Assembly (NCBI RefSeq): GCF_032362555.1
Contig: NC_083515.1
Span: forward strand, 5,553,001 to 5,617,000
Direction of reading: 5' to 3'
Origin: Amyelois transitella
Lineage: Eukaryota > Arthropoda > Insecta > Lepidoptera > Pyralidae
Length of the DNA: 64,000 nucleotides
Part shown: piece by piece, positions 2,336 through 53,100 of the stretch
Position numbering within the stretch: the first letter of the stretch is position 1
Layout: the number at the start of each line of letters is the position of its first letter
The notes under the pieces: model-generated
The model's input: only the letters and a program-made list of their open reading frames with translations
Told to the model about the DNA's origin: nothing
The model's database searches: none
Program-made: the position numbers and the translations under genes

Positions 2336-5300
2336 ATGTCAACTATAATAAAATTTGAACTAAAAGAATTAAGAAAGTTAGCAAATGATAAAGACTCTTG
2401 CGTTGTTGAAAAAAAAGTGACTCAAAATCTTGCACTGCAACCTTGGTGTCTAGGAAATCTAAAAGAATCTATAAAGAATTTATTAGATTACAAAATAGGG
2501 AAATATGACAAAGAGTAAGCATATTTTGTTTGTGAGGTATGTAATAGTATATGTGTAGAAAAATGTTACAGTTTTGCAATTCCAACATGTTTTAGATTCA
2601 ATGGAATTCTCCTGAGCTATAAAAATCTTCGTATACTACAGAATATAGGATCAATACGCAATGATAATGCAGATATCAATTTTCAAGTACAAGCAGACTA
2701 CTTTATATTTCGTCCCTATGTTGGCGCTATGTTAAAAGGGGTTATCAACAGGAAGAGTCACACACATTTGGGAATACTGGTACACAGGTAAACAGTAGTT
2801 TCTAGCTTTTGCCCGTGGCTTCGCTCATGCATATTTGTTGTTTAATGTGTAGCAGGAGCAACGATTTGGCTCGACCACCACCAAAGGGAAGATCTTCCGC
2901 CAGGTGTTATGCCTGGGGATGCAGCTCCTACCATGTTGAGTCAGAGATAATATTTATGCTCCAATACTTATTTGTATGCACAGTGACCAATTTTTCTGCT
3001 CACTACACTGTCTTAAGAAGAAAGATTGCAAATTTACGATATTAATTATTAAACAGCTTTTCCCATGATTGAACTCTGCACATTGTCGTTCATAAACATT
3101 TTCATCATCATCTTTTTTTTCTGGAATGACAGATACCATTATAATATCCTTTTCAATTCCTTGGTTTTTTCGGAGTACACAAAGTATCTGTTTACTGTTC
3201 CTGAGGGAAGTTAATGTGGAAGAACCCTTGGGCAATGGCAAATTTTTATAGTTGCATTGTATCTATAATTAGTACCTAAAATATAATTTTCTTATTACAC
3301 TAAACACTAAAACTAAGTCACATATAACAAAAGAGTCATTGGTACATGGCCAAGGTTAGATTTAAACCTGGGCTACCAGGCACATTTAACTACCACCTGC
3401 TCTAGCCGCATACAACCTACTCATACCTACAATAAGTAATTCTTTGCACAATTTTTTTTTAATTTCACATTATTAGTGTATCTATTTATTAATCTACTTT
3501 AAAGAATTAAAGTCATTATGTCTGGTGTAAATTATCTTGATGATGATTAAGGATTAATATGCTTGTGTGTAGCTCTCAAAATGTACCTTTTTGATTAACA
3601 TTACACCCTTATTTTGGTAGTACATTACAAATATAAATAACTAGCTGTGTTCCTGGGACTTCGTCTGAGTGGAATAGTCATTTTAGTTCATTGAAGGATG
3701 AATAATGTTCCCTGGTTTTTTTTTTTGTCTTTTTCCATTATTTCTTCGCTCCTAATAGTTGCACAGTGATGTAATATAGCCTAAAGCCTTCCTAGATAAA
3801 TGGCCTATTTAACACAAAATAATTTTTCAATTCTAACCAGTAGTCGTATTAGCGCGTTCAAACAAACAAACAAAAAAACTCTTCAGCTTTATAATATTAG
3901 TATAGATAATCAACAGTTTGGCCAGGCACGCAAGGAAAGGTTTTTGAAACGCTTTTCCGCCATATTACTTTAAAAGTATTGATTAATCTATCTGAAAACT
4001 AATTTGTTTTAAAACAAATATGCCTACAGCAATCTCGGATAATGTTGCTTTCTTTGAAATTGGTTTGGTATCTTTGGAGATTACCCGCCTCAAATATACA
4101 AGCTCACAAATGCTTACCTCTTTATATTATTAGTATAGATTGACAATTATTTGGGTTGTATGAACACATGTAAGTTAGGGTTGCCAGGTATCCACAGGAC
4201 ACAGTCATGCTTCTGAGTGCCTGTCTAGCTAATATTTACAGGGCTTTTAAAGGAATTTTGCAAACATATGTGGCAGTCCAAGCATAAAGGTACCACTTGG
4301 GTGGTATTGAGTTAAGGCCATATTTGGATAGTTAAATAGTTGGTTGATCATATGGAATAAAAAAAAAATTAATCATAATAACATTTATTGGAATAAAAAA
4401 TTTTCAAAGTTCACACTTACAAAAATCAAATTATTGGGAAACAGGCATTGAAAGTTTAAGCTGTATTATCTAAAGATCTAGTAGTCAGTTACATAGATTA
4501 TTATTTATTATTATAGAGCAATATGTTTAGTATAAAATCAATTAGTTAATGTTATGGAAACATTATCGAATAAAAAAATAGAAGCTTAAAACTAACTATA
4601 TAATAAGTTTAGTAAAAGGGCCCAGTTGAGTACAATAAAATTTTAAACTGTAATAGCTAGAGATCTAGTTGTCAGTTACATAGATTCTTATTTATTACAA
4701 TAGAACAATATGTTAAGTATAAAATCGACTGGTTATTATTATGGCAACACCATCGAATAAAAAAATAGAAGCTTAAAACTAACTTTATAATAAGTTTAGT
4801 AAAAGGGCCCAGTTGAATATAATAAAATTTTAAATTGTAATAGCTAGAGATCAAGATGTCAGTTACATAGATTCTTATTTATAATAATAGAGAAATATAT
4901 TAAGTATAAAATCGACTAGTTTTTATTATGGCAACACTATCAAATAAAAAAATAAAAACTTAAAACTAATTGGTAGTTATGTTAAGTTTAGGAAATGGGT
5001 CGAGTTGACCGAAATTAGGTTATATTTCGCGTACATTGTAACACACATTTATTAAGAATATATATACTACTCGTAGGACATACAAAAACAGATTAAATTT
5101 ACGTCAAAAGAATAAAAATTAATGAATTAAAAGTCATTAATACGACACATTCCAAAAAAAAAAGAATTAACCTATTACAGGTTTCAAAAGTCAGAATTAA
5201 ATCTCAAATATTTTCTGACCTGCGCTTTGGACAAAAATATGACCCGTTTCTTACTTGATTCCTATGACCGACTTCCTTGCGGTATGAACAAGTTGGCGTT

Positions 5301-8300
5301 TTTCTAACACTCAGCTTAACTAGCTTAGCTTAGCTTAGCTAACTTAGCAATTTGATTGGATGATGTATTAGAAGTAGAAGTAGTTGTTCCTTCTACTACA
5401 CTACAGTGACTAGGAGTGGATATGTCGTCTAAGACTATTGGTTTGGGACACAAAATAGGGTGATTGCGCTGGTTTTCGTCCAATTAGCGGAGTTGCTAGC
5501 TTTCAGACGTAAAAATAATATGATAAAGTATCCTAATTAAAATAGCTCATATTTGTTTATATACCTCATATAGTCTATTTTTGATAAAAATTAAGAAACT
5601 TTTAATTATAACTACATTGTTTTTTATATAAATAATTAAATGTTAAATGGCAGATTTCACTAGTTTTCGTCCAAAAAATTTGGTTTTCGCCCTGGTGTGA
5701 TCTAGTTTCCGTCCAGTATGTAAAAAAGAGTAAAAGTGCAATGTTAAATAAAAACTGTCTTTATAATCTTTTATTTAATCAACAAAAATATTTATTCTTC
5801 AGCAGTAGATTTCCTGCTTTTTTTATTTCCCCGAATCCATCTATAACAATTAATTTCATAGTTTAGTACCTACTAGAAAAACCTGTACGAATTAACAAGA
5901 AAATGTGTTAGAAGTAGATTCAACACTATTATGGACGAAAACTAATACAAAAAAAATTGCTGTTTAGTTTTCGTCCATGCCATTTAAACATTTTTTTTTA
6001 CAAGCAATACTGAGAAATTATTGGACGTTAACTAAATATCTTGTCAAATAGCCAATAAAGTTCATATATAAAGAAAACACATATTTTTTTATAGGTCTGA
6101 AAAAGTAAAATGAACATTCCAAATATTTAGCTTGCTGTTTTAGTTTCCGTCCACGTGGACGGATACCAAATAATTGGTAAAATAGGCATGTCAGTATTCG
6201 TCCGCAAACTTTTACTAAGATTACTACAAAAACATTGTAAAATAACCTAAACATAATGTTAGTTATACTCTTAAATATCCTTACATGCCAAAATATTACC
6301 CAATCTATGTGAAATAGTCATAAAACCCACCACGGAGTGTTCCTGCACCAGCAATTTTTTTTGTATCGGCAATGACGTCTACGAAACACGAACACATGCC
6401 GGCCACTGAGTTTAATTTTTTCGAAGTTGACAAATTGGATTTTGTGGTTGTTAGAACTGTTGCTTAAGTATGAAGGATCGTGACAAGTTGCAACATGCGT
6501 GCATAGGTGTGTTTATATTCTTTTTATATGCGTTTAAAAGTGAAATGGACGAAAAGTAGAACTGGACGCCAAACCAGCGCAATTACCCTATCTTTAGATT
6601 CTTCTTCGACAAATTCACGTATTTTGTTATACAAATACCATTCCTTTCTATAGTCATACCTGACGGGAATATTTGTGTTGGAAGTTGGTCTTATACTTTA
6701 TTTGGATTTAAAACTTTTGCCACGACCGATGGTAGCATTTCAGAAATATTTTTGTAGCAAAGCATGTGCCCTTTGTTATTTGCGTTAGATTCAAAATGGG
6801 AAAATGTTAATAGCTGGCTTATGGTAGAAGCATCTGATTGAAAAAATTTTGCCCAGTCATACATTTTTATAAAAGTATCACCTTTCTCATTACCTGTGAG
6901 AACAGCTGTAATTGCGTTAGTTTTTGGACAAGCCTGAACTGCGGCTACAACCAAATCCATTAATTTATTAGATTCTCTATTTCTAAAACTTTTTTTAAAA
7001 AGTCCAAAGTACATGTCTGGGGCGAACTTGGTATGCCCTACGGGAAGGAATGACATGCGAAATGACCGATGCCTACCTGTAACAACTCGCCACGTAGCAT
7101 ACTGCATAACATAGTTATTTTTATTTTGCCCAGCACAGTTATCAGCGTGGCACACAACATCGGTTTCACCTAATCCGAAATTTGCAAAAAAATGATGCAG
7201 CAATGAAATGATTACGTTAGCCCCTTTACCTGTATGACATGATTCAGGGATAATATATAAGACAAATTTCTTTAATGGCTCTACAGCAACACCAAATAAA
7301 CTGACTTTGAACCCTAACAAAAAATAAAATGGCCCTATCTGTTGAGAGCTATGTGGTAAATGAACTTGCTGAGCAAAATCAAAAGAGTAATGCATCGTAA
7401 CTACAAGTAATATGAGGTCCAAGCATAGGGAAAGATTCAGAGAATGAATCTCTTACACATCTGATTATATCACTGTAATATTTTCTTTCAATTTGTACTA
7501 GGTCTAAATGTTACTTTGATTTAATTATGAGATTTAATTTTTCTTCTTCACTCAAGCGTTCATTTTTTTAATGTTGTTACATTTTTTTGACAAACTGCGC
7601 AAAGGTCAGTTTTCGGTTTCTGCACAACAACATTTGGGCAAAATGTTTCCCAGAGGTCGTACCAAGTACTCCTACCAACAGGAATATTATTCAGTGAAAT
7701 TAGTGAATCACAATATGTTTTATAAACGTATGATTTGGTCATACTGCAAGGAAGTATTACTAGATCAGAATTATATCGGTGACCTGGTAGACGGCCAGGT
7801 AAAACTAAACCGTTATCATTGGAGTACTGTTTTATATAATTAACTGCATCAGCTCTGGTTTGTAAATTATAACAATTGTAAGGAGCTTTTCGTGACTTAT
7901 AGACATTTGGCGCGACACCGTTAGTCAAAAAATCTCTATTATAAAATATCGCTGTTGACAGTAGATGTCTTTGTGGTTGGTTAAACATCGACATTAGTTG
8001 TTATTTAACTCATTATCATTATAGAATTCAATTTCAATCATTCAATTTAAAGAGTGTTGATAACTGGTCCCTTTTCACTAAACATATAATTGCATTTTTC
8101 TCACGTTGTGTTCGTTATTTACAGACGATTATTATACGAAAATGTAGCCCATTGCATGTTGCATTAAAATCCATTAAAATCGCATAATGCCAATTTTCCA
8201 CCTTTTTTCACAAAATCTCAAATATCTCGGAAACTAGAAAGTGCTCAGTGGGCCCTTTTCGCTTGGACGGCCACATATAATTTGTGAATTGCAGTTTCAT

Positions 8301-20847: not shown

Positions 20848-23800
20848 ATGGCGAACATGTTAAAAGAAATGTAAGTCCATTTAAAATTTGTTTATGTGCT
20901 GCTATAAACTATTTGAAGTGAACTAAATTATAAAGCAAACCTAATGCAGGGCAACCACCTGAAGTCTCCCACTTGCATCTTGGATAGGAGGGCAGGCTCA
21001 TTCCATCTATATAATCACGTCTATATCCCTTGCAGGGTAGATAGAGCCAGCAACTTGAAAGACTGACAGGCCACGTTTAGCTGTAAGGCTTAATGATAGA
21101 ATTGAGATTCAAATAGTAACAGGTTGCTAGTCTATAAGAATAAGCCTATCCCTGAAAAGGAAAGAAAAGATCCGTGTATAATTATGATTCAGAAATGGTT
21201 AATCAGGTGAATACACAGATTGTCTCTCGCTCAACGTTTTGTTTATTCTCTTTGTCTTGAATTGGTTCTAGTTTAAATGTGCTGACACCCACACAGCCTA
21301 AGAAATTGTTGATGTAGAAGACCACATTTGATTTGTACTATATTTTAATTTTCCAAGTATAGACTTTGTACCTAATATAGTAAGCTAGCTTGGCCCGCCT
21401 ATGTCCTTAGATGGAGCCTTTTTTGATATCCACACTATATGTATATTTTATAGGGAAAATTATGTTATAGTTGTTAATTCAATGTTTTTTATTTTAGATA
21501 TGAAAAGTCAGGAGAATATACTGCCTTCTATACTGGCGGAGATATTCAGTGGTCACAAGATGGTGTCTGTTTACTTTGTCAATGTGATGATGTTATCAAA
21601 ATCATTGATATCAATACACTGTCAACAAATCTCATCATTGGAGACCCTGAAGAAGATGCAGAGAGTGACCAAATTTACACATTCCAAATGTCCCATGACA
21701 ATGAAGTTATTGTGTCTGCACATAAAAGTGGACTCATGAAACTGTGGGATCGAACAACAGGTAAACAAGTAAAGGTTTGGAGATCTGGCCACAAAGGGCC
21801 AGTAGCTAGACTAGCATTTGATTCAAGCAATGATTGCCTTGCATCAGGAGGATCTGATGGAAATATTAGACTGTGGGATTTGGCTCATCATACCTGTACC
21901 AGCAGTTTAAGAGGTGCTATGGGAGTTTTCACTGTCTTGATATATCACCCAAACCCGTCTAAGGAATTGATTTTTGGAGCAGCTGATGATACAAAAATAA
22001 GGTCTTGGAATTCAAAAAATGGGAAGGAAAGTGTAATATACTCTGGGCATTTTAGCAAAGTGACCTCTCTGCAGTTTACTGCAGATGGTGAACATATGGT
22101 AAGTTCAGGCAGGGATAGAGTTCTAATTCTTTGGAAATTAAGTGAAAGCAAAGCTCTGAGAGTGATACCTGTCTATGAGAGTATTGAATCAATTGTACTT
22201 TTACCACAGTCTTTTAAAATACCACATTTTTCAAAAAAAGTTGAAACTGATGGTATTTATGTTGCATGTGCAGGAGAAAAAGGGGTAGTTAAAGTTTGGA
22301 ATATGTATATGAGTCGTTTGATGTATGAACAAAATAATAGCTTGGTGTCTCCTGCAGCTGAAGAGGGTGGCCTTGCTGTAACACACTTATTGTACAATGA
22401 TGCTCGGAATATGCTATCAGTTGTCACAGTTGATCATAATATAATTGTACATGACCTGGAATCCTTTGGCTGTGTGAAGCAAATGATTGGTTTTACGGAT
22501 GAAATTTTAGATATAATATTTGTTGGTAAAGAGGAAACACATATTGTTGTTGCTACCAACAGTAGGGATTTAAAGTATTATGAGTTGGAAAGCATGAATT
22601 GCCAAATATTGAAAGGCCATACTGATATTGTTTTATCTATGGCTGGATTTCCTACTAAACCTGAAATGTTTGTATCTTCTGCTAAAGATAATTCTGTTAG
22701 AATTTGGATTCAAGATGCAAATAAAGTTATCACATGCATTGGTGTTGGAACAAGGCATACCGCATCAGTGGGTTCCGTACACACTTCTCAGACTTCTTGT
22801 AATTTTTTTACATCAGTGAGCCAAGATAATTGTTTAAAAGTTTGGACCATGCCAAAAGATTTTGATGATAATGAGCAACAAATAAAATCAAGCTATACTG
22901 AGTTGGCACACAATATGGATATCAATTGTGTTGCCATTTCACCAAATGACAAAATTATTGTTACGGGTTCTCAAGACAAGACCGCTAAGTTATGGACAGA
23001 AGATTTATCATTATTAGGTATTCTTAAAGGTCATAGAAGAGGAGTGTGGTGTGCTAAATTCTCCCCTGTTGATCAAGTTATTATGACCTCTTCTGCAGAC
23101 TGTTCTATTAAGTTATGGTCAGTTGTGGACTTGAGTTGCTTAAAAACATTTGAGGGTCATGAAAGTTCAGTTTTAAAAGTGGAGTTTCTTAGTAGAGGCC
23201 AACAAATTATTTCAAGTGGTGCTGATGGACTATTAAAATTATGGAATATTAAGTCTTCTGATTGCAAAATGTCATTAGATAATCATGATGGAAAAATCTG
23301 GTCTTTAGCTGTTAAAAAAGATGAATCAGTGCTTATAACAGGAGGGTCTGATTCAAAGTTAGTAATATTGAAAGATGTGACTACAGAGCGAAGGGATCAG
23401 CTGGCTAAGGAAAGAGAACAGCAGATCTTGCAAGAACAAGAGTTAAATAATTTATTACATGATAGAAAAATGGTAAAAGCCCTGAAACTAGCGTTGCGAA
23501 TGGATAGGCCCCTACATGTTTTGAAAATTGTCAATGAAGTCCTGAAAACAGGAACTGATAAACTATATGAAACTCTTAAAGAAATTAATAACACCCAAAA
23601 AGAAACATTACTGAAGTTTGCTGCAGAATGGAACACAAATAATAAAAACTGTCATGCTGCACAAATCGTTTTTAATATCTTAGCGCCAGAAATAATATCC
23701 GGAAACTTGAAATTACCAGCTTTAGCCAGTTTTATTGAAGGTGCATTACCTTACAGTGAAAGACATTTTGAAAGATTAACTAATTTGTTGCAGGATTTAA

Positions 23801-23853
23801 ATTTTATTACTTACACTGTAAACTGTATGCAACCTCACTCTATTAAGAACTAA
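20848..23853 (+). CDS. Tbl3: WD40 protein TBL3 / UTP13, SSU processome
   Basis: Component of the UTP-B complex, which binds the 5' ETS of pre-rRNA for 18S maturation in the nucleolus. Exon 1 is 20848-20870 (MANMLKE + 2 nt), intron GTAAGT...TTTTAG, exon 2 is 21498-23853; 792 aa, close to the size of animal TBL3. Many WD repeats are visible through GH...W-D/K signatures: SGHKGPVARLAFD...GGSDGNIRLWD, SGHFSKVTSLQF, KGHTDIVLSMAGF, ELAHNMDINCVAIS...TGSQDKTAKLW, KGHRRGVWCAKFS, EGHESSVLKVEF, consistent with two tandem propellers. The C-terminal Utp13 domain follows from about residue 650 (LLHDRKMVKALKLALRMDRP...). Exon 2 carries nearly the whole protein without introns. A minor intronic repeat (family A) lies in the only intron. 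Confidence 0.93.
21008..21165 (-). mobile_element. family A repeat fragment
   Basis: In reverse: 'ataagcctatccc'-adjacent body, 'gactagcaacctgttac', 'gctggctctatctaccctgc', 'aagggatatagacgtgatta'. In the Tbl3 intron. Confidence 0.75.
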
Positions 23854-36200: not shown

Positions 36201-39200
36201 ATGTACCTACCTACGTTTAAATTTTTCCAAAGATTAACCCTTACTATCGAACAAAGTTACAAACTCTACCTCATGTTAAAAGTTGATGGTTGGAATATGA
36301 TGAAGCTAGTTTTATGTATTTAAACTGTTCATTACCTACTAGCTTACACCTGTAGCTCCATCCGCATGAAAAAGTATCCTACGTCCTTCTTTGCGATATT
36401 TCATGAAGATCGGATCAGTGGTTTCAGTGTTTAACAAACTAACGCATTTATGAAATAAGTATGGCTTATTCATAAAATTTCATTGAAATTTCTGCAAATA
36501 CAGATAAATGGTGGTTTCAAATAGATACAATCATCAATAGTGGAAAATCGGTTACCTAATTGATTTAACACCCACTTGATAGAATACTTGTATTTTTTAC
36601 ATTTTATTGGTGCTAGTTAACCTGCTACCGTTTTTGTCATTTACTACTTTACTTTTTGTGGCTGAGTTAAATACTTTTCATGCTGATGTAAAAAATGTTC
36701 CATTCGTTAAAAGTTATTCGATAAAAGACCTAATGTTCACGTAGGTACTTAGTATAATTATTAACCACTACTAACGATACTTATTTTTCCTAATATAATT
36801 TTAAAAGTATTTCTTTTGTCTCAAAATCAATACCTTGTATTTTTAGATAGCACTTCTGTTTGTTAAATTAATTGACATGCTAAAAATTAAATAGCTATAT
36901 TAATTTGATTTACGAGGATTTACACACGTATCACATCATGATTTATAATTACATTTGATACTTCCTTTTCCTATAGTTTTCTTCCAACTAATGTATTACC
37001 TTTTGCTGATCTAACCGCTCGCAACTTTTACGTGTGTACATAATACTAGGGATTCTAAAAATAAATACATTATCATGCACAAAATGACGTTGTATTTATT
37101 TTATATTATAATTTACGCGGAGATTTCAATACTAATCTCTCTGATTCACTGAAGCAAATAAAATTAACTGCTTTGTAGGTTGTTGTCCAAATAGAGTATA
37201 TTTACTACATTTTACAATATAATCACTGAATCATAGTGCCTTTATTTGAATACTGCAATATTCTATTCATTAAAATATCCACTAGCAAACAGGAAGAGAT
37301 GAATAAAGCCTATAAATTATCATATTTCGTTTTAGTTGAGTGAAGTACTTATGCGACTTTGACTAAAAAGTTTTTCTTGATAAGAACTGACGTTTTCTTC
37401 TCTATTTTACAAAATACATCAGTATTATGGCCTAAGTAATAATCTTATTTATTTTTTTTCCGAAATACATTATATAATACCTTTAATCTTTAAACGGCGT
37501 CTGAGAATGTTCAATTTTGCAGATACCTTCCTATAATTTCTAAAAGACAATAATTTAACTAATATTTTTAATTTTGTTGTGGCTGTGATATCTAAGAAGT
37601 ATGCTTTGTGAAAAATACATTGAAGGTAACTACTTCCATAGTTTGTTTAATAATTTTATTAAATACACTTGTGGGCATACGTAGTGGCTTAGCGGCTTAA
37701 TCTTAAAGCAAATCTCGTTGGTATCAGGGAATTGGTCCATAATGTTATCAGTATCAGTAAGCAAATATTGACATTGTTGTCGTCGGCAGCTCCCACCGAC
37801 CTTGCGGTGGTGTGCGTATGTAGTAAGTTCCACGTAGGTAGGTACATTAGTCTTTAAAACTGAATTTGAAAATTTGAAGAAGTAGAAAATGCTTACATGC
37901 TGGTTTTGGTAGAAAATAAATATAGTATGCGCTGGCTGCGTCTCTTACCGTACATATTGTTGAAGTCAATCAGGGGGAATGTTCATTACCTTAACCTCTA
38001 AATCTATGTCTGAATGTCAATTCGAACACTAAACTTATCGTTATCGGTAATATAGCAGAGGTGCTTTATAATATCTTACGGGACAGCCAGAGATTTAGAG
38101 GTCACAAGACTAGAGTCAAGCTTATCAAGCACAACCTGGATATTTTAATGACTTTTTTTTATGTGACCTAGGCCAACAGGGTTGGAGTGTCCATCCCTGG
38201 ACAACGGCGACAGCTATACCCAGTCAGAGTTCCTGTCGCGGCTGGCCAACGAGTGTCGCTACGACCGGCTGCTGCTGCCTACCTACAACACCAGGGATAC
38301 TGTCTATGTGCACGCTAGTTCATATGTCTACTTTATACAGCCAGCGGAGGCCCATGATCTAGTGAGTATGTTTGTTCATAAGTTTTTATATTTTACGCTC
38401 TCTTTTAGTTTGGTTTGATAGCAAAGCCTGTATCCGTCGATCTGGGGTGTTAAAGACGGCATTAAAATTGTTAGCTGCATGACCGACACAGCCTTGCGGG
38501 ATTTTTTGTTGTATTGCATAAGCTGTTAACACTTCCGCTTTTAGTTTTCTCCTATGACAAATATTAACAGAAAGGAAGAATTGCTTGCCCTAGCTCGAAA
38601 TTCGACACCAAAACGTAGGTAATGTAAACTAATATTGTTCGTTATTTGCTTCAGAATTTCAAATTGCATTTTCTTTTGCAACTGCGGTGGGTTGACAAAC
38701 GGTTGGCATACTACCGGTTTTCGCCGAAGCGAATAAACATAATCGGGGAAAATGATCTGCGGGATCGAATATGGGTACCGCACTTGTATATGTCCAATGA
38801 ACAGTCATCTAGTTTGATGGGGACGGATAGTAAGGACGTGCTGATATCGGTGGCACCTGACGGAGAAGTCGTGTTCAGTCGACGCATGCAAGCAGTCCTG
38901 TACTGCTGGATGAATCTGCAAAAGTTTCCGTTTGACGAACAAACGTGTTCCATGAATCTTGAGAGCTGTGAGTATTTAGCATACTTTTCCTTAAACAATT
39001 TTACCGTTAAAAAAAGACGTGTGGTTCCCGGCACCAATAAAAAAAGAAAAGGACCACTCCATCTCGTGGATCTACCCATGGATGTCGTAAAAGACGACTA
39101 AGGGATAGGCTTATAAACTTGGGATTCTTCTTTCAGGCGATGGGCTAGCAACCTGTCACTATTTGAATCACATTTCCATCATAAAGCCAAACAGCTGAAC

Positions 39201-42200
39201 GTGGCCTATTAGTCTTTTCAAGACTGTTGGCTCTGTCTACCCCGCAAGGGGTATAGACGTGATTATGTGTGTGTAAAAAAACGTAATATTTAGTCATCTG
39301 TATCATACCTTAAGTATACATAAAACTTACTTAAACGAAAAATCTCTTTGTTTTAACCTATATTTTTGCACTTATATTATAATGATTTTTGTCTGTTATA
39401 AATTAGTTCAGAACCTGTGACCCGATTAGTTAGGGTTTCAACATTATAATATTATGAATTTCAAATTGCAGTATTCGCAGGATTTACAAAAATTTTAATT
39501 TTAAAATCAATAACTGTAATCAAAAACATAATGCCAAAGGCCTACATGCAGGCGTAGGTACAAATATTCTTCGAGGTTTTTACCAAATTGTTTAATTTTG
39601 TTCTTGTTATCTGATTACATGGTTTGTTATTTTCAGGGAAATACAACGCTTCGATTTTACGGCTGATGTGGGAAAAAGACATACCGCCGGTGCGCTTGTC
39701 TCCTGAACTCCACTTAACTGAGTATTCTCTCATAGATTTCTGGACCAATGAGTCCGTGGTTAGGGGTGACATAGCAAGTATGCGCCTCATAGGAGGTAGA
39801 TGTAATAATCACTTTCTTTACTAAACGTGTTGTTCATGTAAGTTACAAGGTACATAAGGCAAATATTCATAAATAGCTTTATTTATCTTTTATAGCTTTT
39901 TGTAATCTTATTATGATTTAGTTTAATTGGATAATAAATTGACAAGGTCTTAAAAATCAGTTAATTTTTTTTTTCATAGAAATTTTAAGTATCAATACGT
40001 GTCAATGAAGTGTTATGTAACAATTAATCTGTATTTTCCGTATAACGGGTATTCAAATTCAGTAGCTATACTAATAATTACCGTTATTGCCTCATGTACC
40101 TACCAGCTATTAATTTTATTTTATATCTTTTGTGTTTTCTCTATAAACCATATACTTTATATAGTTATTTCTAATTCCATTGCAACAGCTTGATGATAAC
40201 GCATTTAACGGGACATAGCCATGTACAAGCACAATATAATCCCTTTGCTTCCACCTACCTATTTGAATCTCAATTCTATCATAGAGCCAAAAAGCTGAAC
40301 TGAAACTGTTGGCTCTGTCTATCCCGCAAGGGATATAGATGTGATTATATGTATGTATGTACCTATTGTTTAACTTTTAATAAAAGGAAAATCTTTCGGC
40401 CATCAGTGGAACAGTATTTATTTATGTAAAATAAATTATATACATATTTACTTCATTTTGATACACGCAACATAAGGCAACCTGCATACCTTAAAAATTT
40501 AAAAAGATCAGTGCTAGACGATTATACCGGAACATCTACATACTACAGACTGACTATCCTCTACAATATACATATCCGCTTATTTACCAAGTAAAAACCT
40601 AAAATATAAACTTTTTGCTTATTTATGACTTTTCTCACAGTCTTAATTATTGTAGACCCTATAAAAAGATAGGTTTAATATGTATCAAATTCATCTCTAA
40701 CCTAACAGGACTTTCACTTCTATGTGTGTGTAGTGGGCAACGCACACGTTACTAGCCAAATATTAATTAACTTCTTAAGTGTCATATTTTTTACTATGGC
40801 ATAAATGTTATATGTGATTAAAGTTAATCATTTCATATACTTTTCTCGTATCCTATTTTGTCCAAATACCCAATGGACCGGGTAATGGCCAAGTAAAATA
40901 ACATTTCAATATTTTTCACTAATACGAAGCGCGTAAAATTGTGAAACGAGTACATTAGGAATTACTTTTTCAGCTGGTAACTACAGCGCCCTAAAGTTCA
41001 CTTTCAAGTTAGGGCGCGAGGTCGGTTACTACCTGATGGACTACTTCATCCCCTCGATGATGATAGTGGCTATGTCTTGGGTCACGTTTTGGTTACAAGC
41101 GGACGCTTCTGCTCCGAGAATTACTCTAGGTACGTTGTATTTTTCCAGCCAACAACTACAGCGCCCTAACGTTCACTTTCGAGCTAGGCCGCGAAGACGG
41201 GTACTACCAAATGGATTACTTCATCCCATCTATGATGATAGTGGCCGTGTCTTGGGTCACGTTTTGGTTGCACCCGAACGCTTCCGCGCCGAGAATCATT
41301 GTCGGTATGTTGTGTGTGCTCTGGCTCTGGGATACCCAAGCGATACCAAAAAGCTATGCTGCCTGTTTTTCTGCTCGATAAAAAGGGCTGTACTAACTAA
41401 CTGTTAGTTTAGAAACGTTTACAGATTAATATTAATTTTGTTAATAGACAGTAAAAGAAGGGAGCGATTTTAATACATTCAAATCAGTAGGTGTATAGTA
41501 TAAATTAGTTGTAGTTGTAGTTATTAATGAATTACTTCATCATTTGCTATTAAAAGCTATTCGGTTTTGGTAAAATTTCGATGCATACCTATATGTGCCT
41601 AGATAGTTTCATGTAATATTAACCTGTATAGTTGTAATATCAACTGAGTCATGTGTATGTTGCACTTACCTACTTTGTTCGCGCCAACTTTGTCATCTTA
41701 TTAAATACTCTACCATGCTTAATACTAAAGAATGCAGTCGATTATAGTATAAATAAATATTAGAAGGCTGCAGAGAAGACTAAAATTACAAATGACTCCT
41801 GGACGAGTTGAAAGAAGGCAGATGAGGAACATGGAAGCCAAAATCAGAAATTGTAGAAAGAGAGAGGGCGAGATAAGTGGTTCACTTTAATAACTTGTTA
41901 CCGTATTACTAAAACTATTGCCGTTATCCGAGTTTCACAAAATAAATGTGACTTTCTATTTCCAGGCACCAGTACCATGTTATCATTTATCACGCTGGCA
42001 TCGAGTCAGTCCAAGACGCTACCGAAAGTGTCGTACATCAAAGCCAGCGAGATCTGGTTCCTGGGCTGCATCGGCTTCATCTTCTCTGCTCTCGTGGAGT
42101 TCGCTTTTGTCAACACTATTTGGCGAAGAAAGTAAGTCTCAAATTCATACGTATTAAAATCGTTTTCCCATAAAATGGGTACATGAGGTAACAAGAAAGA

Positions 42201-45200
42201 AGCTATATGGATTGGAGTGTCCTTCCAACGTGCCCACTTGCACGTTGTCTTTGCCATTCCTCCTGGAAAGAGACGTGATTTTATTTTTTTCAAAATGCAG
42301 CCATTTATTAGGTCATAAACATTTTACTTGTAATCTAAGTAAAGAAGAAAGTTTAATATTCAAGTCGTGCTAGACTCCAACGCGATATTGCAAACAAAAA
42401 CATAATCTTGTTATCAAACATGGTCCAAATAAATATTATCTTGTTTGAAATCCCTAGAACTGAATAAACTTAACATTTGTATAATTACCACGTAAGGTAA
42501 ATATTATGTTTAATAGAAATTGCTAGTATTTTGAGGCTAATACAAATACAGATATATCACAATTTTTCTCCCTTACCTACGGGGTACCTAGAGCCAATAG
42601 TTACAAGACTTGATGGAATGGAGATCTAGATAGTGATAGAGGTTGCTAACCCATGACCTAAAGGAATGAATCTTGAGTTAATTATTCCAATAATATTATA
42701 AATAATTTATTCATTTAAAATTTGATTCTAAGCCGTGTGATTTCCGGCACCAATAGAAAAAAAAATAGGACCACTCCATCTCTTTCCTATGGATGTCGTA
42801 AACTGCAACTAAGGGATAGGCTTTTAAACTTGGGATGCTTCTTTAAGGCGACTAGCTAGCAACTTGCCACTATTTGAATCTCATTTCTATCATTAAGTTA
42901 AACAGCCGAACGTGGCCTATTGTTCTTTTCGAGAATGTTGGCTCTAACGTGATTATATATGTAAAATTTGATAACAAACTGTATCAATAGATTTACCTGC
43001 AAAGGCTTATAAACTAGGGATTCTTCTTTTCTTTTCTTATCTATAGTGAGATTCGGTTGCCGAATGGGTAAAGTGCCCGTTTAAAATGCGCGATGTGCAT
43101 AAAAGACGCAGATTCAAATCCCACCTCGGCCATGTACCAATGACTATTTTTGAAGTTATGTACATTATTTTGAAAAATAACCGATGCTCTTACTCCACAT
43201 TCAGGCAACTGGATGTATAACCACGATCGATCCAATACGGGATAGGTTTACCTGCAAAGGTTGCGTTATTTAAAAATTTATAAATATTTTCTTCAGGAAA
43301 GTAGTAAGCCTGAAGAAGGTGAACAGTAAGTACATTCTGAAGAGTACACTGACGCCGCGGCTAGCGCGCAAGGAGCTCCAGAAGGAATTGCAGGAAACTT
43401 CGCCGCAGCTGTCCAAGTCCAGGTCATGCTCGTCCCTCAATCAGGACACCAGCAGCGACCCCTCAGGACCTGCTTACAATAACTACCTGACTGTACACGT
43501 GAGTCTCACTCATCTCTGTGGAGAGGACCCCTTTGCGCCCCTTTTGACATTGTATTTTAAATGTATTATCTTACACATTGTGTAAAATATTACATTGTAT
43601 ATTAAAACTTAGAATATTTTAAGAACCATTTCACATTTTCGACGGCGCAGTGCTGTCCTCATTAGTTGTAGCAATAATCGCTTATAAACTTAGAAAACTA
43701 TAAACATAAACGTTTTGAGTCAAAAAAAATAATAGGATTTATAAATAAACATACAATATACAGGACAGAAATTGAGTTAGCCTCGAAGTAAGTTCAAGAC
43801 TTGTGTTATGATACTAACTCAATGATACTACCTAAAATATAGTAAATACTTATAAAGATAAAAATCCAAGATCCAGCTCAATCAGAGAAAGTTCGTTTCA
43901 CATCATGCTCTGGCTGAGATACGAATCCGGGACCTCCGGTATCACAGAGAATTAAATAGCCTCAAAATATTTTTCGTATCGTAGATGCCATAGAATATCT
44001 CGTAGCAGAAAAAATATTTTATATTTAGGATTCTACGTCGTAGCATGTTCGTAGCAGAATTCATAATTATTCTAATGTTATAAAAAAAGTCCTCTTCATT
44101 TGAACCATAGCTGATATTGTTTCTTAGTTATTGTCTAAGATGTAAATAGAATCAAATTTTCATTTAAATAAATATTGCACCATGAACAATGCTATAAATT
44201 ATAATACAATGCACCGATAGTACATTTATTGGTGTTATGTAATAAACGTAATTGATTAGGTACTCGTACATTCATCATCACGAGATGGCTTGTGCATGTT
44301 TCGTGAATTCTCACTGAAGGTTATTGAGATAAAAAATAATCTTTTCAATAAAAAAATACGAGTAATACTTATTTGAAAAGTAATAAAATTGATAATTGAC
44401 AAATACTCTGGCTTTTAGGCCGTTAGAACGAGAACATAGAGTTCAAATATACTGCACCGAATATAAGACAGTACAGACAGGGCCAACGCACGACTAAGAA
44501 TCGGGTTCGCCAGCCTTCGTTGCTTTAGTTTTTTCGAACGAAATTACTTAATAGTATGAAAAGATGATACAGTTAATCAGCCAATGGAAAAAGCTTCGGT
44601 TTGTACGAACCTTAAGCAGATATCAAGTGCTTCATAATTTTCATTTTCACATAAACTGGGTCTTATTATGGGGTAATTCTAGAAACTGGTTGTTTATCAC
44701 TATCGACGTTATTACACGGCATTACACAAAGCATGTCACCTATTTCAGGCTCACGTTTCGAAGTTTATTTTTTATGCAAATCACTAAACCAAACAAAACG
44801 GTATTGTTTTGCACCCTGTTCATGCAGTAACTTGTAATACAAGTACAATACTTATCAGTTTCAGTTTACGACTTATGTATGAACCATCGATAGCGTATTA
44901 TTTGTACACATCCGCATTATGCGTCTACCAATGCTATTTACTTCATTAGTCAACTCGTTAAGAACATTCACGACGTCGCTGTGTATTTTCCATGTGTTTG
45001 TAATTTCATCCGAAATAAGTACATATAAACGGTATTTTAGGATGTAAAAATTAAGGATCAGTTTTTGAAATAGCCAAACAGCAATAGCAATTCATCAGCA
45101 TGCTAAATAGTTCTTCGTAGTCATAATATAATAAAAATATACCAACAATTTTTGTTGGCTTTTCCAGAGTTTCCCGTCTGCGATGAATTTGCCGACCATC

Positions 45201-45431
45201 ACGACGCAGAGCTACGACGACCTCATCCAAGGTCCCGGAGGGACCCGCAAGCCGCCGGCTCCCAACGGGAACGGCAGCGACGGCTCCGACGAGCCCCCAC
45301 ACCACCATACCTGGACCCAGATGACGCCACAGGAGATCGCCACGTGGATCGACAAGCGCTCACGAGTCATGTTCCCAGTCCTCTTCATCTTCTTCAACAT
45401 CATCTACTGGACTTTCGTCTACTGCCTATGA
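24207..45431 (+). CDS. Cys-loop ligand-gated chloride channel, pHCl / insect group I type
   Basis: Pentameric plasma-membrane anion channel subunit. Exons: 24207-24277, 38172-38361, 38655-38967, 39637-39795, 40974-41129 (5a) or 41149-41304 (5b), 41966-42131, 43297-43498, 45168-45431; phases all agree; 506 aa. Exon 1 is a signal peptide (MTLRTILFSSCLLLLTSN), joined in phase across a 13.9-kb intron. The Cys-loop is C171-x13-C185 (CWMNLQKFPFDEQTC). Exon 5 holds TM1 and the A-P-R anion filter motif; exon 6 holds M2 (GTSTMLSFITLASSQSKTLP) and M3. Exons 7-8 hold the cytoplasmic loop with SYDDLI, and M4 (FPVLFIFFNIIYWTFVYCL) ends the protein. The ECPSL-NG and CRYDR ectodomain start, Leu-rich beta core and SYDDLI point to the insect pHCl/CG6927/CG7589/CG11340 cluster rather than RDL, GluCl or HisCl. 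Ligand (protons, or unknown) is inferred. Confidence 0.9.
24278..25736. other. channel intron 1, proximal part
   Basis: No exon recognised. AT-rich, with many 'taggtacct' microsatellite-like bits common in lepidopteran introns. The frame at 25243-25509 shows no domain. Confidence 0.4.
25737..26108 (-). mobile_element. tRNA-derived SINE, longest copy (family C)
   Basis: In reverse: the tRNA-like head with perfect box B GGTTCGAATCC (in 'aggttcgaatcccaccctgg'), then 'catgtaccaatgactaagtt', 'cattcaggcaactggatgta', 'ggttgcagaggtcagacggg' and 'actggtgaggatgcaactgg'. Related pieces occur at 3340, 28525, 32058, 35945, 43044 and 47770. Confidence 0.8.
26312..26548 (-). mobile_element. family A repeat, near full length
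   Basis: In reverse begins 'gtgtgattcccagcaccaat' and ends at 'gggatatatacgtgattatg'. All family blocks are present, with one small deletion in the middle. Confidence 0.8.
26600..28524. other. channel intron 1, repeat-derived and unclassified DNA
   Basis: At 26600-27000 there are degraded phrases of Helitron-like bodies ('tttcagcgtgatcggctctg'). The rest shows no exon, RNA gene or clear repeat. Confidence 0.35.
28525..28620 (+). mobile_element. family C SINE tail fragment
   Basis: 'gttgcggaggtcacacggga' and 'aattacccaatccgaggc' match the 3' part of the family C SINE at 25737-26108, in plus orientation. Confidence 0.6.
29020..29170 (-). mobile_element. RTE-type LINE 3' end, 5'-truncated
   Basis: In reverse it encodes the C-terminal tail of the RTE reverse transcriptase ([19 protein letters not shown]-like, then RSKWK and the terminal 'gtgattttatgtattta'). 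The same sequence is at 55390-55530 in plus orientation. Confidence 0.8.
29550..29720. repeat. diverged mobile-element tail with TCTG run
   Basis: 'acatataataaaatagtaaa', 'atattttgtctgtacattta' and a (TCTG)n/(TATG)n run. The same blocks recur at 30265-30335, next to a Helitron-like 3' end, so both are copies of one element. Confidence 0.6.
29938..30112 (+). mobile_element. family A repeat, 3' portion
   Basis: Contains 'gactaagggataggcttac', 'gttggctctgtctaccccgc' and 'aagggatatagacgtgacca'. Confidence 0.8.
30138..30391 (+). mobile_element. tRNA-like SINE head plus Helitron-like 3' end
   Basis: 30141-30205 reads like a tRNA ('ggtccagtggttagcgcg' as box A, 'agttcgagtccc' as box B). It is followed by the TCTG-run element and, at 30358-30391, by 'acgcggacgaagtcgcgggc' and 'aacagctag' then T, matching a Helitron 3' hairpin and CTAG|T terminus. 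Confidence 0.55.
30400..34840. other. channel intron 1, no clear features
   Basis: No exon. Contains a family C SINE fragment at about 32058-32200 (minus) and a short family A piece at 31625-31670 ('ggcttataaacttggaattc'). At 32220-32370 there is an imperfect inverted repeat ('gttgaatttctctga...', 'gggcagaaaaat'-type arms). Remaining sequence is unclassified. Confidence 0.4.
34842..35033 (+). mobile_element. family A repeat
   Basis: 'tctctttcccatggataaca', 'tcttgggattcttctttcag', 'ggctctgtctaccccataag' and tail 'gtgattatatgtatgtatgt'. Confidence 0.8.
35034..38171. other. channel intron 1, distal part
   Basis: Family C SINE pieces at 35945-36120 (minus). A Helitron-like end near 36140 ('gtagccacggcttcgcccgt') and bodies to about 36480. 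At 35575-35640 a degraded trace resembling the RTE tail (minus). Otherwise AT-rich with no exon. Confidence 0.4.
39018..39275 (+). mobile_element. family A repeat, full length
   Basis: Starts 'gtgtggttcccggcaccaat' and ends 'ggggtatagacgtgattatg' plus a TG run. It begins about 50 bp after the donor of channel exon 3. Confidence 0.85.
40258..40366 (+). mobile_element. family A repeat, 3' fragment
   Basis: 'tatttgaatctcaattctat', 'ttggctctgtctatcccgca' and tail 'gattatatgtatgtatgta'. In channel intron 4, upstream of exon 5a. Confidence 0.75.
40974..41129 (+). other. channel exon 5a (TM1 + pre-M2), alternative A
   Basis: 156 nt, acceptor TACTTTTTCAG, donor CTAG|GTACGT, phase 1/1. Encodes AGNYSALKFTFKLGRE..., TM1 DYFIPSMMIVAMSWVTFWL, then QADASAPRITL. 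Residues K/K/V/L before TM1 and QAD before the APR filter are the versions recalled in related insect channels, so this is probably the ancestral form. Confidence 0.85.
41149..41304 (+). other. channel exon 5b (TM1 + pre-M2), alternative B
   Basis: 156 nt, acceptor TGTATTTTTCCAG, donor GTCG|GTATGT, same phase as 5a. Encodes ANNYSALTFTFELGRE..., TM1 DYFIPSMMIVAVSWVTFWL, then HPNASAPRIIV. It is about 79% identical to 5a at protein level (11 changes in 53), with about 12 further synonymous codon changes and no stop or frameshift. The 19-nt gap (41130-41148) that separates it from 5a serves as both a donor and an acceptor region. Confidence 0.8.
42568..42964. mobile_element. two family A repeats, inverted pair
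   Basis: 42568-42680 (minus: 'ctacggggtacctagagcca' and 'tagatagtgatagaggttgc') and 42732-42964 (plus: 'gtgtgatttccggcaccaat' to 'aacgtgattatatatg'). They face each other in channel intron 6, as in Mkk4 intron 4. Just upstream, 42205-42290 is a short RTE-like tail. Confidence 0.7.
43044..43262 (+). mobile_element. family C SINE
   Basis: Head 'gccgaatgggtaaagtgccc', box B 'agattcaaatccc', then 'catgtaccaatgact', 'cattcaggcaactggatgta' and 'cctgcaaaggttgc'. It ends 34 bp before channel exon 7. Confidence 0.8.
43735..43975 (-). mobile_element. tRNA-derived SINE (family B)
   Basis: In reverse: damaged box A, 'accggaggtcccggattcg' region, 'tgagctggatcttggatttt' and 'aacacaagtcttgaacttac', tail AT-rich. 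In channel intron 7. Confidence 0.75.
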
Positions 45432-50100: not shown

Positions 50101-53100
50101 GTTAAAACTTTACGAGTACGCTTGCCGTGCTTGCCCGTTATTTACCGTTTTGAAGGATACTAAAATTTCAAATCTTCGGAACGAGCGGTACCGAGTGCAC
50201 ATGTAAGTCAATCAGTGTCCTTGTATTCGAAGATATGAAATTCAATATCCAAATGAGAAGATGTCAAGAAACCCTGCTTACCTATAACTCTGCTGTGTGC
50301 TAAGCCGTGACCCAGACAGGCTGATCGGCTTATAGAGGCGGTTGAACCTAGCCTCCCAATGGGATATAGTCGCATGTTGGCGTTCTGCATCCAGCGCCAA
50401 GCCCAGCAGGTGGCTGTCAAAAATTAATTTTAATATCATTAAAGCTGGTCTGACAAAAATGTCGTGTCTACATTCGACAAGTGGAGGCTAGCTCTTAGTT
50501 TAAGGGGTGTTACAGGTTTAATACTAGCTGTAAAATTGTGACATCAATGAGAGATATTCGGTAAACATCAATTATTTATAATGATGCTTCATGAACTAGT
50601 TGAGTACCTACTTTAGTCTATTTTACCTACCTGTCCAGCTCCATCAGCCTCCGTCGTAACCGCATTTGTTGTTTGAAAGTAGACACTATGGCCTCTCTTA
50701 AGGATTTTAAATGGGCCGCACTTTCTGCACTCTCCTCTTTCTTTACTTCTTCTATCAGTTGGAGATCTTCTTTCGATATACTGCCAAAAGAAAATTTACA
50801 ATTGAGATAGATTTCGAATGTATTCACAAGTAAAAAATATAAGAGAACAACAAATACCTTGACCGGTCGTCTTTCATCTTAAGCTTGAGCCGCGAAATCT
50901 CTTCTCTCAATTCATTTATGACCGAACGATATTGGGACAGATGCATGGGTGTTTCAACCAATTCCCGTTCCACCTATTAAATAAATAAACTGAAGCTAAT
51001 AACAAAATATTAAAATGAGAAAAGTCGTTAACAACGCGCTTACTATTTCAAATAAAGCAACTTATGCACTCGCACATTTAGCTGTTACTATGGTATCTAA
51101 CGTTATAAACGTAGGGACATAATTGGAATGGGAACAAACTTCCTCTTAAGGCAGTACGTACCCTGTTAGTGATAGAAGATGCTTTCTGGGCGTAATGCAG
51201 AGTTGATCGAGTGGTCTCACGATGGTTGTGTCCGGGAGCGACGTGCGCCACCATCGCAGTGCGACACCGTCCTCCGAGTACCTCTCGCAGCAAACGTGTT
51301 AATTTTGAATCGCGGTAGTTCACGTATCTGTAAGCATTCCGCTTTAGTAAAATCGAGTTAACGTAGTAGTACTGTATCTGTATTATCGACTTTACTAGAC
51401 TAACCTGGCTCCCCCAGAAAGCGCCATGATGCAGTTGCCGAGAGCCAGGAGTGAGCGGTTGATGTGTGCGCCCTCGAGGCGGCGCGCGCGCAGCCCAGCG
51501 CGCTCTGACCCCGCCAGGTCAATAAGGAACAGACGTCCTCGCTGCACACCACCTTCCACCGGACAACTCACAGTAACACTAAAAATATCTAAATATTTAA
51601 CAACCTGAAAGAGCTTGTTTAATACTTCCTGCTGAACTTAGTACCTAGTAATAAAATAAAACTATTCTCTATGGATACCTATGTCGCAGTAATAGTTACT
51701 TTGCTGGAAGGATTTTGGATAGATCAATGTGTTGCTCACTGTACACTATGAAGAAAATATTAAAAATATAACAAAGCGAAAAATGTAAATTGGCCCACTT
51801 ATGCGGTAGGTAATTACAGTTGCCGGAAAGTTAAATGGCCATATGAAACATTCCGACATGATACAAGGTTATATATAATTAACACTTCTAGTGCAATTTA
51901 AATGAACCACAATCGTCAAATTAGGTATCTTTGAGCTAAACCCATGTTTATCTTTCTTTTGTCATCGCAGTGCTTTTTGTATGTGTGAAATGATACAGTG
52001 TAAGTCATTATTTTTTATGGTCTGCTTCACTTATAATTTATCCAATTGCACCCGAGCAGATGTCGTTGGCCGAGTTAGAAGGTATACATTCTAAGTGTCT
52101 TCCATAGTGCCAAGTTATTAGTTATGCTAATGTTACTTACCTAAGTAACGCGTGTCCCCTAGACGAGTGCTGGTTAGCGTGCGTGGGCTCGGCAGTCCTG
52201 GCGCGGTCCCCGCGGGCCAACAACTCGGCCACGTGGGCCGCGCTGGTCGCCCGCACCTCGCTTAGACCGGCCACCACAGGTGCTCCACTGCCCCCCTCGT
52301 CTCGGAGCTCCAGAGCGCCAGCACCGGGGTTCAACAAGTCCCGTATATTTTCATTATATATCTCTATGTAGGACATTTTTACCTAGAAAAGAAATGTGTG
52401 CGATAACGGGAAATTCGTTCAAACCAACGTATAAGAAGTGGGCACCTGTTTAATTTGTTTAAACTCCCTCTCTCTCTTTCTTACCGCGTGTTCCCGGTTG
52501 CACCCTTCACAAAAGTGTTTCGGGACCCGGGGTCCGCCTTCCGACTATATTTGTTTAAACTCTAATAACATGAACCACTAACTTACGTATTTCCTGGTCA
52601 AATATGTACCTTGTTGAGCGAGGAGGAAGGAAACAACCTTATACCCTTTGTAATGTTTTATCTAAGAAACATATTCTTGCCGCTTTGAAGAATTACTATG
52701 GGAAAAGTGTGGCAAGATTTTGTAATATTCGATATCGAGCCATTCCTGAATAGCCATAATTACGCGCGATAATAACAAGAGCACACGATAATTAAAATAA
52801 AAAGAATTAATTAAAATCCCAAAAATGAAGGAAGCCGGAAGGAAACCAATAAATGCCACTGACATTGAATTTCTTAATAAAGAAATAACATAAAGGTCCT
52901 TAGATATAATGACTGTAACTATCTATCGACTTTAGGAAAATTACAGGCACTTATATGATTAATAATGAATGTAAAATACATATTTAAAAGGTCGTTTTAT
53001 TGTACAAGAATATTGAGTACGGTACCTAAATGTACAACAATTATTGATTAAGTATTAGTATTAAGAGTAAGTATGTATCATACTCAACAAGGTCGCTATG

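Follow-up and report, generated by a model that had tools for sequence, protein, structure and literature searches.

The stretch of DNA analysed here, which we call the window, is 64,000 nt long (C11:5553001-5617000 in an assembly of 327 Mb and 33 contigs) and carries on its forward strand a gene for a predicted neurotransmitter-gated ion channel. The first exon found (38180..38361) opens the ligand-binding domain (Pfam Neur_chan_LBD), the next (38655..38967) continues this domain and includes the Cys-loop, and a third (39637..39795; exon 4 of the initial annotation) runs to loop C and has a translation free of cysteine. Two copies of the following exon lie side by side, and in the gene model and the comparison of the copies with their paralogues each encodes the end of beta10, TM1, the M1-M2 loop, and the beginning of the pore; we refer to them as 5a (40974..41129) and 5b (41149..41304). 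The remainder of TM2 (from 4') and TM3 are encoded at 41966..42131, the TM3-TM4 intracellular loop at 43297..43498, and the end of that loop, TM4, and the stop codon at 45168..45431. An exon with the start codon and signal peptide was not located upstream of 38180 in the gene model.

The two copies are 156 nt each, are arranged head-to-tail, share the same phase, and are each preceded by AG and followed by GT. Only 19 nt separate them (41130..41148, GTACGTTGTATTTTTCCAG), and this spacer is made up of the 5a donor (GTACGT) and the 5b acceptor (TTTTTCCAG) placed back to back. Coordinates, lengths, phase, splice dinucleotides, and spacer had all been described in the initial annotation and were borne out by the sequence check, as was its claim that either copy is in frame with the flanking exons: 5a and 5b each give an open channel fragment of 479 aa, and the two fragments are identical outside the exon itself. 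The pair forms a single tandem repeat with a 175-bp unit and 82% identity, in which the copies diverge at 28 of 156 nucleotides and at 23 of 51 whole codons; 11 of these codons specify a different residue. The first ~10 codons (40979..41008 versus 41154..41183) have no synonymous difference, and later codons have some; the synonymous-free start could be a gene conversion tract, a splicing element, or chance.

Both predicted isoforms score above the Pfam cut-offs for the neurotransmitter-gated ligand-binding domain (26 bits) and transmembrane domain (28.1 bits), with 139.4 and 100.2 bits when 5a is used and 140.1 and 90.0 bits when 5b is used. Both also have PDB matches among GABA-A and glycine receptor chains (best chain score 200.9 with 5a versus 187.5 with 5b). 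Arg at pore position 0', a feature of anionic Cys-loop channels, is present in both copies and occupies the same column as in eight paralogue rows from the same genome. Other frames of the window encode a Utp13-type WD40 protein (21478..23853, forward strand), a kinesin motor fragment (51078..51518, reverse strand), and a DUF7869 protein (6691..7452, reverse strand); the Pfam scan of eight such frames left five without a match. Dispersed-repeat copies, all in the same orientation, occur in introns before and after the exon pair (39075..39234, 40259..40357, and 42786..42945).

Identity of the channel gene

A 5a peptide search of the assembly that contains the window returned 11 matches, which are 5a (100%), 5b (82%), and nine others at 38-47%. 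Protein scans of viral and prokaryotic contig collections returned no relatives, as expected there. The eight paralogue rows comprise two RDL-type sequences, a C5 group-I-type, C24, a C5 LCCH3-type, a C19 GluCl-type, and two exon copies of a gene on C8; L008 was excluded because an intron splits the segment. The labels RDL, group-I, LCCH3, and GluCl denote the families to which we take these genes to belong.

The initial annotation placed the exon pair in a pHCl gene, a label that is probably wrong. Excerpts of PMC4569296 describe spider pHCl subunits with a second Cys-loop and a full PAR motif, and an insect 12344 clade that lacks the second Cys-loop. In the window protein, the segment that separates the Cys-loop from TM1 is free of cysteine, so that loop C has no second Cys-loop, as in the 12344 clade, and APR rather than PAR stands before TM2 in both copies. 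Both pHCl features are found in the C8 gene (L010), which has a cysteine pair (IPCPIKASWRG, then NYSC) and PAR. This C8 gene had also been considered as a histamine-gated channel, an assignment that was dropped for a pHCl type given its second Cys-loop and PAR.

Identities over TM1-TM3 bear on the same question. The window protein (5a) is 40-46% identical to all paralogues, about equally: 46% to the GluCl-type, 44% to C24 over only 57 aa of TM1 and early TM2, and 40-42% to the others, with the RDL row covering 95 aa. In Table 2 of the Tribolium study, Drosophila pHCl is nearest to GluCl (23% versus 15-21% to other subunits; excerpt of PMC2064938). The window protein thus leans towards GluCl as that pHCl does, by little (46% versus 40-44%), and this, together with its character as an orphan anion channel, would suit the reading that the same exon switch sits in a pHCl gene. 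We consider that reading unlikely, since the window protein has neither a second Cys-loop nor PAR, whereas both are present in the C8 gene, whose closest match is clearly GluCl (50%, versus 34-40% to the others). By elimination, in a comparison with paralogues of its own genome and with published family features, the window gene is fairly likely to be a CG12344-type orphan. The full-length values of Table 2 place CG12344 nearest to HisCl among other subunits (25%; excerpt of PMC2064938). The TM1-TM3 identities of the window protein do not reproduce this closeness, and their failure to do so counts against, or at least gives no help to, the CG12344 assignment. Drosophila CG12344 is treated as a glycine-receptor subunit in the clock network by a review (PMC6540063, in excerpt).

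The C8 gene resembles the window gene in that its homologous exon is also duplicated in tandem (4846..4998 and 5218..5370, 153 nt each, 219 nt apart). Its copies differ at 35 of 51 codons, 33 of which are synonymous differences; only two residues change, A/S ahead of TM1 and S/V at position 1' of the pore. With numbering from 0, codons 38-44 are seven consecutive identical codons, TGGCTGGAATGGAATGCAGTG, despite the many differences elsewhere, and may represent an RNA-level element. The duplications in the window and in C8 look independent, because copies are far more alike within each pair than between pairs. A tandem copy of the TM1 exon is present in two of the nine channel genes found in the genome, a count that may miss genes with an intron inside TM1. 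A 2004 review reportedly deals, by its title, with convergent splicing in ion channels. Two other arrangements were observed in the genome: C31 (L007, L005) carries two RDL-type TM1-TM2 exons at separate sites, which differ at 2' (Ala in one, Ser in the other), and C2:11949371-11955667 carries separate TM exons on one strand that match the channel TM profile, with positions 30-59 occurring twice, and could be an alternative-exon cluster.

Residues exchanged and selection on the two copies

All 10 rows compared align the filter R in a single column, and the last three whole codons of the exon are therefore positions 1', 2', and 3'. The exon covers pore positions 0'-3', a point absent from the initial annotation, and reads R-I-T-L in 5a and R-I-I-V in 5b; from 5a to 5b, the pore-lining Thr2' becomes Ile and Leu3' becomes Val. 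Where the last strand of the binding domain enters TM1, K becomes E, V becomes D, and L becomes Q, and in the M1-M2 loop QAD becomes HPN. The strand leading into TM1 is the coupling region between the binding domain and the pore. The initial annotation had counted 11 changed residues, clustered before TM1 and just before the filter; the number is correct, and the confinement to two clusters fails at 2' and 3', which lie after the filter. In the PDB alignments, K, V, and L of 5a stand opposite K, I, and I of a GABA-A beta-2 chain, and glycine receptor alpha-3 has H, M, and L where 5b has E, D, and Q. Position 2' is the site named for dieldrin resistance and picrotoxin, and is tied to conductance and to sensitivity to blockers and insecticides (excerpt of PMC4569296).

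None of the eight paralogue rows shares the 5b residue at eight of the 11 differing positions, and none shares the 5a residue at three, so that 5a looks ancestral-like and 5b derived. Against this polarity, the 5b residue is the commoner one at two positions, P and N of HPN (one row versus none, and four rows versus one), and the rows are not independent, as the two RDL sequences are nearly identical to each other and so are the two C8 copies. Paralogue residues at the position of the 5b D are M, M, I, L, I, F, R, and R, those at the position of the 5b Q are L, L, L, L, V, L, F, and F, and Ile is found at 2' in none of the eight rows. Copy 5b retains the columns that are invariant over the 11 rows compared, which include R0' and, in TM1, W, P, and S. 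An effect of the switch on gating or the pore, as put forward in the initial annotation, is plausible from these residues, and we think it rather likely that exon choice alters both.

Divergence between 5a and 5b by the Nei-Gojobori method is 0.70 at synonymous sites (dS) and 0.107 at non-synonymous sites (dN), a dN/dS of 0.15 (bootstrap range 0.05-0.36, with 1996 of 2000 replicates usable). When 28 random substitutions were simulated on 5a in 5000 trials, 65% of the copies gained a stop, the mean number of residue changes was 18.3, and 11 or fewer occurred in 0.06%. The low dN/dS and the outcome of the simulation lead us to conclude, as far as sequence comparison carries, that the pair is old and constrained. 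An assembly artefact, a pair of alleles, and a recent assembly duplicate were each rejected, as the dS is far too high and there is a single locus in the genome; the same dS indirectly answers the concern, raised in the initial annotation, that the pair might collapse to one exon in a better assembly.

Alternatively, 5b could be constrained and yet specify a subunit that is silent or dominant-negative, in which case exon choice would tune the number of channels and not their properties. Such a subunit would be in keeping with the D and Q of 5b, which stand at pre-M1/M1 sites where the eight paralogue rows have other residues, and with the Ile2' that none of them has. We regard it as distinctly unlikely, given the dN/dS across the pair and the retention in 5b of R0' and of the W, P, and S of TM1.

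That 5b is a duplicate in decay, or already dead, and has dropped out of splicing is less probable again, indeed very unlikely. The Pfam TM and PDB scores of 5b fall below those of 5a, and a one-branch test, which also counsels caution about the constraint on the pair, is equivocal: with all 12 non-synonymous changes and half of the synonymous ones assigned to 5b, the deviation from neutral expectation is borderline (p 0.05), and with the synonymous share cut to one third it is not significant (p 0.30). Yet the 5b donor and acceptor are intact, and 5b has acquired neither a stop nor a frameshift at a divergence where about two thirds of the random copies gained a stop.

Splicing of the pair

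Joining both copies leaves the message in frame (531 aa), and so does skipping both (427 aa). Because 156 is a multiple of three, the frame does not bar double use, and exclusion must therefore come from the spacing. The exclusive use proposed in the initial annotation holds up in these terms, as the tandem spacing should force it and both frames are constrained, with no barrier from the frame itself. We know of no insect intron as short as 19 nt. A steric threshold of ~50 nt from donor to branch point is given in PMC7969005 (excerpt), far above the 19 nt between 5a and 5b, and 57 of 629 human exon clusters (9%) were predicted to be under a threshold of ~50 nt (excerpt of PMC5740500); caution is advised by the unusually short introns reported in human RNA (PMC5435141, in excerpt).

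The pair has the sequence features of mutually exclusive homologous exons, namely tandem homology, the same phase, and two copies that can each be joined. Competing RNA structure was considered as well: 39780..42000 contains seven candidate inverted repeats, three of which span the exon pair (39892..39907 with 41342..41357, 39975..39987 with 41571..41583, and 40371..40382 with 41548..41559). Altogether, 5a and 5b are very probably a real, constrained, and sterically exclusive exon pair.

The usual distance from branch point to AG is about 18-40 nt, and on this basis the branch point of 5b would be expected at ~41109..41131 on the forward strand, within 5a or its donor. A motif scan of this interval found no yTnAy motif. 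Its best match is ATTAC at 41120..41124 (4 of 5 positions), in which the candidate branch A, 41123, opens the Thr2' codon and precedes the end of the AG by 25 nt. We infer that ATTAC may act as the 5b branch point.

The explanation we favour, and hold to be likely, is that 5a and 5b are tandem-duplicated mutually exclusive exons of an insect anionic Cys-loop gene, most likely a CG12344-type orphan, and that their choice alters gating or the pore. The 19-nt interval could presumably not be spliced out, the 5b branch point would lie within exon 5a or its donor, and U1 bound at the donor of 5a would be incompatible with U2/U2AF bound at the acceptor of 5b on one RNA. Each transcript would then join exon 4 either to 5a or to 5b. 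The 5a isoform would be the family-typical channel and the 5b isoform a derived one. The expected differences, which would arise in certain cells or stages, are in the coupling of agonist binding to opening, in conductance or desensitisation, and in the response to picrotoxin and other pore blockers.

An RNA-level off switch, in which both exons and the 19 nt are retained and the resulting frameshift leads to decay, is extremely improbable: retention does shift the frame, as the initial annotation stated, and the 5a-19-5b message is open through 5b and reaches its first stop at fragment residue 393, but a switch of this kind would leave the constraint on the 5b protein frame unexplained.

A bolder extension of the mutually exclusive reading, which we offer tentatively, is that two orphan or pH-type chloride channels of one genome have independently made the exon for TM1 and positions 0'-3' into an either-or cassette. 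The cassette in the window would be policed by interlocked splice sites, with the 5b branch point in 5a at ATTAC, such that the use of one exon blocks the signal of the other. If this is true, the chemistry of the pore at 2', the insecticide position, would be under regulation and would vary with cell type. More generally, an exon switch at this position would let one gene make pores of different chemistry in different cells, and this in a channel for which no ligand is firmly established. The 19-nt spacing would also make the pair a simple natural experiment on the steric model of mutually exclusive splicing, since removal of an intron between the copies should be impossible.

Comparison with known systems

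Steric exclusion has a precedent in exons 4a and 4b of OGDH, where mutual exclusion results from branch points too near to the upstream donor; these branch points are intronic, 25-41 nt past the donor in humans (excerpt of PMC7969005), whereas the 19 nt of the window pair should shift the branch point of 5b to a site within 5a or the 5a donor.

Alternative exons are also known from related channels. Insect nAChR alpha6 has tandem alternatives of exon 8 that change TM2 (excerpt of PMC2064938), in a cation channel, unlike the window gene. Exons 3 and 6 of insect RDL and exon 3 of GluCl are alternative exons in insect chloride channels, as is the case here, but they alter the ligand-binding domain and not TM1 or the pore (excerpt of PMC2064938). 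Alternative splicing of an insect orphan chloride channel is represented by pHCl, whose splice variants 3, 3a, and 4 and intron-10 variants, described from beetles, are insertions in loop C or in the TM3-TM4 loop and in this respect differ from the window pair (excerpts of PMC2064938 and PMC7017565). Among the literature matches listed, in the parts they contain, there is no description of a TM1 exon pair in pHCl or CG12344, which weakly supports its absence from print; public lepidopteran gene models may already list both isoforms.

The closest likeness is to the tick RDL gene (GABA-1), which also has intragenic exon copies in an anionic Cys-loop channel, alternative transcripts, and a difference at 2' (Ala/Ser). 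It differs from the window pair in gene and animal group, in being a triplication, in the length of the segment (154 aa versus 51), and in the residues exchanged (A/S versus T/I; excerpt of PMC9219234). Exon copies that swap position 2' are thus already known from tick RDL, and what the window pair adds is an unusually compact arrangement and a pore residue that is informative.
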